Source: Bacteroidales bacterium (lineage in GTDB: Bacteria; Bacteroidota; Bacteroidia; Bacteroidales; F082). Taken from it: 64,000 nucleotides of DNA. Each line of letters starts with the position of its first letter. Positions within the stretch are counted from its first letter, which is position 1. Below the pieces are notes generated by a model. That model saw nothing but the letters and a program-made list of their open reading frames with translations, made no database searches and was not told the origin of the DNA. The position numbers and the translations under genes were made by a program. The stretch covers positions 1-64,000 of the forward strand of contig JAFYHS010000006.1 of assembly GCA_017539045.1 (NCBI GenBank), read 5' to 3'. This document shows, one piece after another, positions 33,484 to 50,069 of this stretch.

Positions 33484-34740
33484 ATGAGAAGTCGCACCTT
33501 GACCATATTATTCACTCTTACAGCGATTCTCCTGTTTGCTTTCATGATACAACAGGCAACAGGGGTCTTTTCATTCAAGGAGCTGAGCGGCGTCACCCAA
33601 GAACAAGCCAAACCGGAGCTGTCCTTCGATAATCTCCGTGGAGGTCTCTATCAGATCGAAACCGAGAATTATCTCCAGCAACACTATGGCTTTCGTGAGC
33701 CTCTGACACGGCTGTACAACCAAAGTCTTTGGACTGTTTTCCGTTACTCTAAGGTGGTCGAAGACCAACGTATCGCCATTACCGACGACAACTGGATTTT
33801 CGAGACCCCCACGATAGAAGAATACTATCAAAGCCGTTCGTATTATATCGCCAATGACGCGTCGGAAGTCGCCAATAAGTTTGAAGAAGAAGCCCAAAGG
33901 CTGCGTCAAATCCAAGCAATCCTTGAACCTTACGGGACCCATGTCTTCGTCGCCCTACTTCCTGGCAAGGAACAAGTTTGTGCCGAACACATGCCCAAAA
34001 ACACACAGTTTTTCGAAGAGAAAAAGATCACGGCTTTCGACTTCTACTCCAAGAGGCTCAAGGAATTGGGCGTCAACCACATCAACTTCGGCGAGTGGTT
34101 CATCCAACAGAAAGGTCATACCGACTATCCGCTATTCCCACAAACGGGTGCCCATTGGAGCATCTTGGCAGCCATGCATTCAACTGATAGCTTGATCCGT
34201 TACATGGAGCATCTGAGCGACTCCAATATGGTCAACATCACAATAGGGGCTCCTTTCAAGAGGACGATGCGGCCTGATGCCGACGTCGAAAACCTGATGA
34301 ACTTGGTTTGGCCCCTACAGAAAGCGCCCAACTACCTGGCAGAGGCCAAGACCGACCATGACACGACGGCTTGGCGACCGCGGCTCCTCACCATCGGCGA
34401 TTCCTTCTATTGGAACATCGCACATTTCACCCCCGTTGATGACATCTTCGCCAAAGCGCCCTATTGGTATTATTTCAGCTCAGTTTATTTCGATGGACCT
34501 GAATCCAAAGTCATTGAGAAAGACCTGCTGAAAGAAGTGCTCTTGTCCGACTTCGTGATGCTCTCCTACTCCACTGTCGGCCTGTATCAGATGAGCAACA
34601 CCTTCTCGTCACGGATACTGCATGAGATCTACTATGATGAAGGCGAAACCGGACCCGTCGATTTCGACAGCATCCCCGACAAACGCTCAAAGAAATTCCT
34701 ACGCTATATCGAACTGAAGCAACATAATGCATTAGAATAA
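33484..34740 (+). CDS. AlgX/AlgJ-like SGNH O-acetylation partner 1 (short B type)
   Basis: Such partners accept acetyl groups passed by an MBOAT protein and place them on a polysaccharide in the periplasm. The 418-residue protein has an N-terminal membrane anchor (about 5-25) and a DHHW/AlgX-like SGNH domain. Visible are GFREPLTRLYNQSLW (about 69-83), TGAHW (His 224) and IGDSF (Ser 307), the His and Ser being the likely catalytic pair. The Asp expected two residues before His, as in D-x-H-W, is Gly here. It resembles the B-type partners (FAFMIQQATGVFSFKELSG) but lacks their long helical C-terminus, ending soon after the SGNH fold. It opens the array, 4 bases before the first MBOAT gene. Confidence 0.8.
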   Translation: MRSRTLTILFTLTAILLFAFMIQQATGVFSFKELSGVTQEQAKPELSFDNLRGGLYQIETENYLQQHYGFREPLTRLYNQSLWTVFRYSKVVEDQRIAITDDNWIFETPTIEEYYQSRSYYIANDASEVANKFEEEAQRLRQIQAILEPYGTHVFVALLPGKEQVCAEHMPKNTQFFEEKKITAFDFYSKRLKELGVNHINFGEWFIQQKGHTDYPLFPQTGAHWSILAAMHSTDSLIRYMEHLSDSNMVNITIGAPFKRTMRPDADVENLMNLVWPLQKAPNYLAEAKTDHDTTAWRPRLLTIGDSFYWNIAHFTPVDDIFAKAPYWYYFSSVYFDGPESKVIEKDLLKEVLLSDFVMLSYSTVGLYQMSNTFSSRILHEIYYDEGETGPVDFDSIPDKRSKKFLRYIELKQHNALE

Positions 34741-34744
34741 GGAC

Positions 34745-48360: not shown

Positions 48361-50069
48361 AAAAGGGCGATTCCATAGTATACAGCATCCTTTTCGGCAT
48401 CTTAATGGTGTTTTTGTTCGCCTTTATGGCACAAAAACATTTTCATCTATTCAAGATGAAGCCCTTGGCGGGTTTCATCAAGAACACTGAAGTGCCAAAG
48501 CTGACCATGGATAGCTACCGTTCGGGGGATTATCAGGCCAAGCTTGAGAGTCGTCTCAGCGAGACCTTCGGTTTTCGCGAACCCGTCATCAGAGCCTATA
48601 ACCAATATCTATGGTGGTGCTATCGCAAGACCTACTGCCATTTCATCGCCCCAGGTAAAGAAGGCTATTTGTTCTACACAGAAGCTATTGATGACTACTA
48701 TGGCCTTGAGTCCATTAAGATGTATCGTACCTATGACCGGGCGAGGGAATGGGCAAGGAAAAACGTGCTGATGATGGACAAACTCAGACATGTTTTGAAA
48801 GACTATGGCGTTGAGTTCCTTTGTTTTATGGGTCCCAACAAAACCCAACTCTATCCCGAATACTTACCTTATCACGAACCCGCACCTGCTGACGCCATCA
48901 ACACGGCCGACTATTACGACTCGCTGATGAACGTCATCGGTTTCCCCCACATCGAGATGACACGATGGTATAAGGCGATGAAAGACACTTGCTCTTTCCA
49001 GCTGATTCCCAAGCGCGACACTCACTGGCGCTATGCTGCCGCCTATGGCTTCGACAGCCTCTTCTGCTATATGGACCGCCTCAACGATTTCGGCATTCCC
49101 GACATCCATGTCAATGGCATGATTGAGCTCGACACCAACTATCGCGAAAGCGATGAAAAAAACCTCAACCTCATCTTCCCCATCCCTAACGATGCCCCAA
49201 AATACTGGCCCGATGTCACCGTCGACTGTGGCGAAGGCTGTCGCAAACCCAAGGTGTTGTTTGTCGGCGACTCCTTCATCTGGGATTTGGAGACCTACCT
49301 GCCCTGGAAGGAAATCATGGAAGATGTGGAGATTTGGTTCTACAACGAATCAGCGTTTGTGGGCTTTGAGAAAGAGTACCATCCCGTTACTGAAATCAAC
49401 CGGCTGCGGTCTATCCTCAACGCCGACTATGTAGTTTGGTATTCCACAGGCAGCCAGTGGTGCCGTTGCTCCTACGACTTTGTAGAAGACGCCCTCCTGC
49501 GCCTCTGCGTGACCGACAGCCTCTTCGACGCCCAAATCCCATGGGTGATGGACAGCTTGCGCAACGACAGCAACTTTAACAAGACCCATTACCAATGGCG
49601 CCATTTGGAGCACCGCGAAGACAGCTTGAGAAAATACGCCATCAAAGCGCTGAGAGACAATCCCTTGTTAATTCCAGGCCTCGACGGCCCCGACATGCCT
49701 GTCATCCGTAATACGGAAGCCATAGCCTTGGCGCTGCAAGGCAATGCCATCGCTAACGACAAACGGTGGCGACAAGCCATCAAGATGGCTGCTTCGAAGT
49801 CCCAGCGCAGCTTCGACGAAATGCTTGACGAAGAAGCATATAACGTGCTCGCTGGACGCAGCCTATTACGAGATAGCATCAGGATCGACACCGCTTCGGT
49901 AATTCAGTTTGAAGTTGAAAAACTCATGAAGCTGTGGAGAAACGATGCCGAAAGCATAAAGTACATAGAGAACAAAGCGCAAGAACGAGGCTTGTCTTTT
50001 GAAGAAATGCTGGAAGCCGATGCTCGTTGGGTCGTCAACGAACGCCTAATTAACGGGGAATTGTTCTGA
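48357..50069 (+). CDS. AlgX/AlgJ-like SGNH partner 7 (long B type, canonical D-x-H-W)
   Basis: The 570-residue protein is the last of the array and overlaps partner 6 by four bases. It alone keeps the complete triad pattern of AlgX-type acetyltransferases: DTHW at 221-224 (Asp 221, His 223) and GDSF at 304-307 (Ser 306). Other B-type features are present: GFREPVIRAYNQYLWWCYRKTY, a membrane helix (SILFGILMVFLFAFM), and a helical C-terminus with two copies of the repeated motif, the last reading IENKAQERGLSFEEMLEADA. Its stop is directly followed by the stop of the convergent GH16-like gene. Confidence 0.82.
   Translation: MKKGDSIVYSILFGILMVFLFAFMAQKHFHLFKMKPLAGFIKNTEVPKLTMDSYRSGDYQAKLESRLSETFGFREPVIRAYNQYLWWCYRKTYCHFIAPGKEGYLFYTEAIDDYYGLESIKMYRTYDRAREWARKNVLMMDKLRHVLKDYGVEFLCFMGPNKTQLYPEYLPYHEPAPADAINTADYYDSLMNVIGFPHIEMTRWYKAMKDTCSFQLIPKRDTHWRYAAAYGFDSLFCYMDRLNDFGIPDIHVNGMIELDTNYRESDEKNLNLIFPIPNDAPKYWPDVTVDCGEGCRKPKVLFVGDSFIWDLETYLPWKEIMEDVEIWFYNESAFVGFEKEYHPVTEINRLRSILNADYVVWYSTGSQWCRCSYDFVEDALLRLCVTDSLFDAQIPWVMDSLRNDSNFNKTHYQWRHLEHREDSLRKYAIKALRDNPLLIPGLDGPDMPVIRNTEAIALALQGNAIANDKRWRQAIKMAASKSQRSFDEMLDEEAYNVLAGRSLLRDSIRIDTASVIQFEVEKLMKLWRNDAESIKYIENKAQERGLSFEEMLEADARWVVNERLINGELF

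Follow-up and report, generated by a model that had tools for sequence, protein, structure and literature searches.

An eleven-gene MBOAT–SGNH array in a Bacteroidales genome, a probable O-acylation system of an envelope glycan

Why would a bacterium keep four MBOAT acyltransferase genes and seven genes for AlgJ/AlgX-like SGNH partners side by side, and on what would they act? The question is raised by positions 33484-50069 (+ strand) of a 64,000-nucleotide stretch (the window) of contig JAFYHS010000006.1, from the Bacteroidales assembly GCA_017539045.1, where these eleven genes follow each other in the order A1-M1-S2-M2-S3-M3-S4-S5-M4-S6-S7 (M, MBOAT; A or S, SGNH of the ALGX family). To our knowledge, the named MBOAT–SGNH systems have one MBOAT each. 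We consider it probable that the array is an amplified MBOAT–SGNH O-acylation system acting on an envelope glycan.

In such a system the MBOAT–SGNH pairs would work as acyl-tyrosine relays, in which a membrane-anchored cognate SGNH on the periplasmic side would take the acyl group, presumably acetyl, onto its serine and then pass it to a glycan hydroxyl. Old paralogues of this unit, kept in one order with up to four MBOATs and extra SGNHs, would set the acylation pattern of each species, be it of positions, sugars or polymers, and a C-terminal module of about 41 residues probably serves to dock the SGNHs and a neighbouring GH16-like protein onto a partner or complex that they share. Surface acylation alters the encounters of a bacterial cell with phages, enzymes and the immunity of the host.

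Gene content and layout of the array

In Pfam searches, the MBOAT family (PF03062) was matched by the four M proteins with E-values of 1e-24 to 5e-35 and the ALGX family (PF16822) by the seven SGNHs, six above the cut-off and S7 slightly below it (25.3 vs. 26.5 bits), in agreement with the gene families given in a preliminary description of this DNA. The genes are A1 (33484-34740), M1 (34745-36202), S2 (36206-37927), M2 (37965-39434), S3 (39434-40774), M3 (40775-42190), S4 (42194-43534), S5 (43539-45572), M4 (45584-47011), S6 (47011-48360) and S7 (48357-50069). With 43539 taken as the start of S5, they are separated in this order by 4, 3, 37, -1, 0, 3, 4, 11, -1 and -4 bases, so the compact arrangement described earlier, on one strand, with gaps of at most 37 bases and start/stop overlaps, was recovered from the open reading frames (ORFs) and fits one transcription unit. 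Pairwise identity was 46-66% among the MBOATs, and about 24-36% in local alignments of the SGNHs, except for S3 vs. S4 (56%).

A match to TTTG-N-TAnnTTTG, which we take to be the Bacteroidota promoter consensus, was found at 33425-33458 (+), 25 bases upstream of the first ATG, that of A1. It was the only match of this type near the array, and the scan gave none inside the array; the whole window held 6 matches vs. 1.08 expected from shuffles. A sigma-70 scan of the window remained at chance level (17 matches vs. 17.9 expected). As the gaps are small and the lone promoter match lies ahead of A1, the eleven genes are likely expressed as a single transcript.

Shuttle motif, phylogeny and distribution of the MBOATs

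The four MBOATs share the start MVFSS, an invariant WHG with the conserved His of the family and the end PFIYFRF. PMC12148441 describes FXYXXF as the acyl-shuttle motif of bacterial MBOATs working with SGNH proteins. FIYFRF formed the C-terminal end of 72 out of 74 genus-centred MBOATs, the remaining two being cut by contig ends, and F-I-Y-x-x-F ended all 52 long MBOATs from other families; by its sequence, FIYFRF is the predicted acyl-shuttle motif of an acyl-tyrosine relay. Because FXYXXF is the relay motif, the common ends of the four proteins are no evidence of tandem duplication, and the duplication deduced from MVFSS and PFIYFRF in the preliminary description was rejected.

The relationships between the copies were read from quick trees with support only from the Shimodaira–Hasegawa-like approximate likelihood ratio test, in which long branches leave some joins uncertain. 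In the genus-centred tree, whose 72 rows include two other MBOATs of the source genome, the four window MBOATs fell into four separate clades, M2 having short branches to its genus counterparts, and one more clade was absent from the window. When 53 MBOATs of other families were added, M1, M2 and M3 grouped with further types in a single clade of 30 rows (support 100) that also contained nested members of the f4 and f82 families, and M4 lay apart, among deeper lineages. Therefore, part of the duplication appears to be older than the genus, with M1-M3 as old paralogues of one clade and M4 as an older lineage or an acquisition. A single lineage-specific burst of duplication was rejected on the same trees. 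The phylogeny proposed as a check thus gave old paralogues; relatives found singly elsewhere, which had been held to argue against the array as a system, do occur as single MBOAT–SGNH pairs, yet these are genes of acyltransferase type.

As regards the group moved, it could be succinyl, an amino acid or another group instead of acetyl; alternatively, the acceptor could be a lipid or a protein. The sequence gives no donor specificity, the MBOAT profile matches DltB, a D-alanine mover, and M4 itself matches the NCBIfam DltB model, far under its cut-off (168 vs. 375 bits). Nevertheless, a Pfam scan of 40 window proteins detected no DltA/DltC-like carrier gene, and PMC12148441 describes acetyl systems in those relatives whose MBOAT itself bears the shuttle motif, which makes this alternative unlikely compared to acetylation of an envelope glycan.

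The source genome (G000), from the genus of bacterium F082 (abbreviated F082), is an uncultured metagenome-assembled genome (MAG) of 2.36 Mb in 43 contigs, 80.9% complete, and probably of rumen origin; the name F082 recurs in publications on the rumen. Its S7 is 96% identical to the counterpart in bacterium F082 and 97% identical to that of RUG13196, both being uncultured MAGs. The same order had been suggested as something to look for in Bacteroidales genomes, and the identical 4+7 order was recovered in a second assembly of the genus (G003, stretch L024), with which the fetched part of RUG13196 (L064) agrees. Therefore, the array is no artefact of the source MAG. Among 60 relatives, source genome included, the SGNH profile found matches in 29 of the 36 genus genomes and in 7 of the 24 from outside the genus. 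Array-type MBOATs, defined by scores above 440 bits (other MBOATs reached at most 415 bits), were present in 49 of 60 sampled genus genomes by hand count, ranging from none to four per genome, with four each in G000, G003, G008 and G010.

Gene order was read in 41 stretches (the window and L024-L063), in which the genes were named after the nearest window gene in the trees, a crude naming by which nine MBOATs are labelled M4 although the M4 clade has seven. All stretches with at least two of M1-M4 kept the order M1-M2-M3-M4, with some members missing. M3 was followed by S3/4 in 12 cases and M4 by S6 in 7; M1 was followed by S2 in 9 cases and by other SGNH types in 6. The S6 clade was represented in 8 genomes and the M4 clade in 7, all 7 in common, with G024 having S6 without M4. 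The variable repertoire proposed at the outset is thus supported, as gene content differs between species and MBOAT–SGNH neighbours recur. Outside the genus, the usual unit in the stretches examined was one MBOAT adjoining one SGNH, and at most two MBOATs lay within 10 kb (G068, G182, G167, L094) among the matches listed and the fetched stretches, at most five candidates per genome being scored in this order-wide count. With its 0 to 4 MBOATs per genome and their recurring partners, the genus offers a natural series in which each pair could be matched to the position that it acylates.

Two further families were seen in array stretches of the genus and do not adjoin the array in the window. One, in ten genomes (L046, L047, L049, L051, L052, L053 and others), has a sulfatase domain after about 280 residues in the two members scanned and is perhaps lipoteichoic-acid-synthase-like; the other, in four genomes, was acyltransferase-3 in the one member scanned.

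Fold and catalytic residues of the SGNH partners

An AlphaFold2 model was obtained for S4, the only SGNH folded, and its best fold matches were PatB1, AlgX and AlgJ, of which PatB1 aligned best. The model starts with a helix at residues 5-27, and hydropathy alone predicted one transmembrane segment in 65 of 70 SGNHs outside the genus, suggesting that these proteins are anchored in the membrane on the periplasmic side. These matches bear on the idea of a multiplied peptidoglycan O-acetylation system, for which the acyl-Tyr relay shown for PatA/PatB would be a precedent (PMC12148441). The best-aligning protein, PatB1, is part of a secondary-wall-polysaccharide system according to the same source, the other matches are AlgX and AlgJ, and a single acceptor would presumably not explain four paralogues with recurrent partners. 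We therefore regard peptidoglycan as a highly improbable acceptor and retain another envelope glycan as the preferred one.

The triad of AlgJ consists of D-x-H plus a Ser, and either D193A or H195A abolishes alginate acetylation in vivo (PMC4148444). In the window, Ser and His were retained in all seven SGNHs, but the AlgJ-type Asp was absent from six of them, S7 being the sole one with D-x-H-W. In the genus-centred set of 138 SGNHs (132 from the genus and 6 from other families), His was present in all and Ser in 132, and the acid position was occupied by G in 97, D in 19, S in 16, A and N in 2 each, and E and C in 1 each. Outside the genus, Gly occupied this position in 67 out of 67 SGNHs of more than 300 residues, in which His, Ser, D233, D265 and N273 (S4 numbering) were invariant and D267 was found in 66. 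Thus, D or E as in the D-x-H-W plus Ser triad of AlgJ/AlgX was found in 20/138 and 0/67, respectively. A clade with S7 and one f4 member (G038) had mostly D or E, whereas in six SGNHs of another clade (G024, G002, G012, G029, G007 and G021; stretches L026, L027, L031, L034, L035 and L037) the nucleophile Ser was replaced by Gly, so these six, from arrays of other species, are apparent pseudoenzymes.

Could most copies, then, be decaying or regulatory pseudoenzymes, with S7 and its intact D-x-H alone transferring the group and the others as scaffolds? The absence of Asp in six window SGNHs, the effect of the AlgJ substitutions and the six-member clade without Ser would all fit. However, Gly in every SGNH outside the genus, together with the invariant His, Ser, D233 and D265, points to a rearranged acid and not to decay, and Ser and His are kept in all window copies, leaving this explanation only a small chance. 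As all 67 SGNHs outside the genus carry Gly and the other acids are invariant, Gly is the usual state in this Bacteroidales group. Which residue acts as the catalytic acid in the G-x-H-W partners is the question that they raise; our guess is that another acid serves there, D265 or D267 being candidates, or none.

The C-terminal module, gene G and comparison with known systems

In profile searches, each of S2 to S7 had at its C-terminus a helical stretch of about 41 residues, present in one to three copies, A1 being without it. One copy each was found in S3 (40625-40741), S4 (43382-43504) and S6 (48205-48324); S2 carries two (37724-37840 and a weak one at 37535-37594, E 0.04), as does S7 (with a strong one at 49917-50039), and in the long C-terminal extension of S5 one profile search found three and another two (45273-45365 and 45438-45551). 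Thus six of the seven window SGNHs carry the module, as does the adjoining GH16-like gene G, in one copy (51462-51584). In the S4 model it consists of three helices (393-404, 407-420 and 424-444), with block values of the predicted local distance difference test (pLDDT) of 62, 91, 91, 81 and 70. No Pfam family scored above cut-off for the module, and no publication on it or on such an array was found in the open-access literature searched.

The nine matches in the source assembly (E up to 0.1) all lie within this locus, with a profile built partly from near-identical copies in relatives. The module was found in 89 of 295 genomes of the order sample at E 1e-4, source genome included, and in none of the 246 other genomes of the phylum sample at E 1e-3. 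A set of 80 stretches was chosen for their G genes (20) or module matches (60), so that counts in it are not frequencies; 102 of its ORFs carried the module: 66 SGNHs, 15 of the 20 G proteins and 21 others, as classified by an SGNH profile with the module cut off. Among the 21, of which three (L097, L103 and L106) were part of the profile that found them, twelve were assigned to the PMT-type (GT-C) glycosyltransferases, four of them on Pfam matches and eight because BLAST relates them to these four, although seven of these calls, including L161 without a Pfam match, depend on L103, barely at the Pfam cut-off. One more is a Wzy_C O-antigen-ligase-like protein with TPRs, another (L191:3173-6595, +, 1140 residues) combines two end modules, one of them weak, with a 60KD_IMP (YidC-like) domain and a sulfatase match below threshold, and seven have no assigned family. 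Two related module-bearing membrane proteins of no known family (L106:10744-13245 and L194:898-3030; 833 and 710 residues, 32% identical) were also seen, one adjoining a G gene and the other an MBOAT–SGNH pair. Of the 21 other carriers, 20 have a predicted transmembrane segment, and in these the module lay C-terminal to the last one. Four of the 12 stretches picked for G alone (L098-L109) had another module-bearing ORF and three an MBOAT, and S, G and M genes stood side by side in L090, L091, L098 and L099.

As O-antigen-ligase-like and PMT-type proteins are among the carriers elsewhere, this association suggests that the acceptor is an envelope glycan, lipid-linked or bound to the surface, and not a secreted polymer. 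The opposite possibility, that the array acetylates a secreted exopolysaccharide, alginate- or acetylated-cellulose-like, and so loosens or protects a biofilm matrix, would be in line with the GH16-like gene next to it and with enzyme families shared with AlgI/AlgJ/AlgX and the cellulose systems (PMC12148441). It seems improbable to us, given the carriers mentioned and the fact that no synthase, polymerase, export or alginate-type gene was found among the 40 scanned proteins. Of the surface or exopolysaccharide acetylation suggested in the preliminary description, the acyltransferase families thus stand and the exopolysaccharide is not supported.

The module may serve as a docking tag within an envelope-glycan complex. 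It is possible, although we find it doubtful as a whole, that it represents a new Bacteroidales docking domain uniting SGNHs, GH16-like lipoproteins, PMT-type and O-antigen-ligase-like enzymes and perhaps a sulfatase-fold transferase in a complex for finishing envelope glycans, of which the array would be the acylation arm, with a species-specific code of acyl positions and the SGNH acid moved. In any case, it offers a sequence handle for further envelope-glycan machinery in Bacteroidales, including proteins without a family name.

Several observations weigh against an amplified envelope-glycan system with a docking module, besides the lack of the AlgJ-type Asp. The system is dispensable, since 11 of the 60 genus genomes lack array-type MBOATs although completeness reaches 93% or more in four of these 11. 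The SGNH types after M2 were mixed, the SGNHs outnumber the MBOATs by seven to four, so that some lack an obvious partner, and the 40 scanned proteins include no cluster for synthesis of an acceptor glycan. In the genus-centred set 17 of 133 SGNHs do not have the module, 5 of 20 G proteins are likewise without it, and five G stretches (L100-L102, L104 and L105) had neither MBOAT nor SGNH; the docking role would therefore rest on an association with exceptions.

Gene G (50070-52040, -), convergent with the array, encodes a protein with the motif EIDIE, one module and a hydrophobic N-terminal anchor without Cys; a lipoprotein-like signal was found with a loose pattern in 18 of 20 homologues outside the genus. 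EIDIE or EIDFE was present in all 33 homologues (13 in the genus and 20 outside), and E-x-D-x-E is what we take to be the GH16 catalytic signature. The window copy scored 18.5 bits against Pfam GH16 (cut-off 22), and 5 of 18 homologues reached E 0.01 (best 3.5e-5). Its predicted structure had a pLDDT of 29.7 (291 residues, from an alignment of three near-identical rows), and searches of the PDB with G returned nothing relevant. G is likely a GH16 protein, although its Pfam score stays below the cut-off. Upstream of it on the same strand lie a CotH kinase gene with a type IX secretion tail (52046-53890, -), after a 5-base gap, and a peptidase S46 gene (54072-56285, -), and a Bacteroidota-type promoter match (56343-56378, -) stands ahead of the three genes.

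Elsewhere in the window, an archaeal-type GatD/GatE pair (26385-27773, -, and 27782-29728, -) was found in this Bacteroidales genome, consisting of an asparaginase with GatD_N and a GatB/E domain protein with a sub-threshold GAD domain; GatD_N was present in 25 of 40 sampled genus genomes and in 4 of 14 control genomes, all four archaea. GatDE, archaea and Bacteroidetes are mentioned together in published work. At 2805-5246 (+) lies a gene whose product has an IgGFc-binding domain and a type IX secretion tail; it is flanked by genes for leucine-rich repeat proteins (1074-2030, 2048-2779 and 5259-5978, +).

Set against known systems, the array represents an enlarged form of the MBOAT–SGNH kind, in which most partners have a changed active-site acid and a module is added. 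It resembles AlgI/AlgJ/AlgX of Pseudomonas alginate in combining an MBOAT with two or more permuted SGNHs from the AlgX family of Pfam, in the His and Ser of the triad and in FXYXXF at the MBOAT end; it differs in having four MBOATs, seven SGNHs and the C-terminal helical module, with G-x-H for D-x-H in most SGNHs, and no alginate polymerase or export gene was seen among the 40 proteins. With PatA/PatB (peptidoglycan) and PatA1/PatB1 (secondary wall polysaccharide) it shares the two-protein relay and, for S4, the best alignment, to PatB1, but these are single pairs with different acceptors, and we know of no such C-terminal module in them. An MBOAT with one or more SGNH partners is also found in WssH-WssI/F/G and the clostridial CcsH/CcsI of acetylated cellulose, which sit in cellulose synthase operons, whereas no synthase was found at the array among the same proteins. 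Finally, DltB/DltD/DltX, for D-alanylation of teichoic acid, has the MBOAT fold and the tyrosine shuttle hexapeptide as well, but there the shuttle is on a separate microprotein and in the array it is on the MBOAT.

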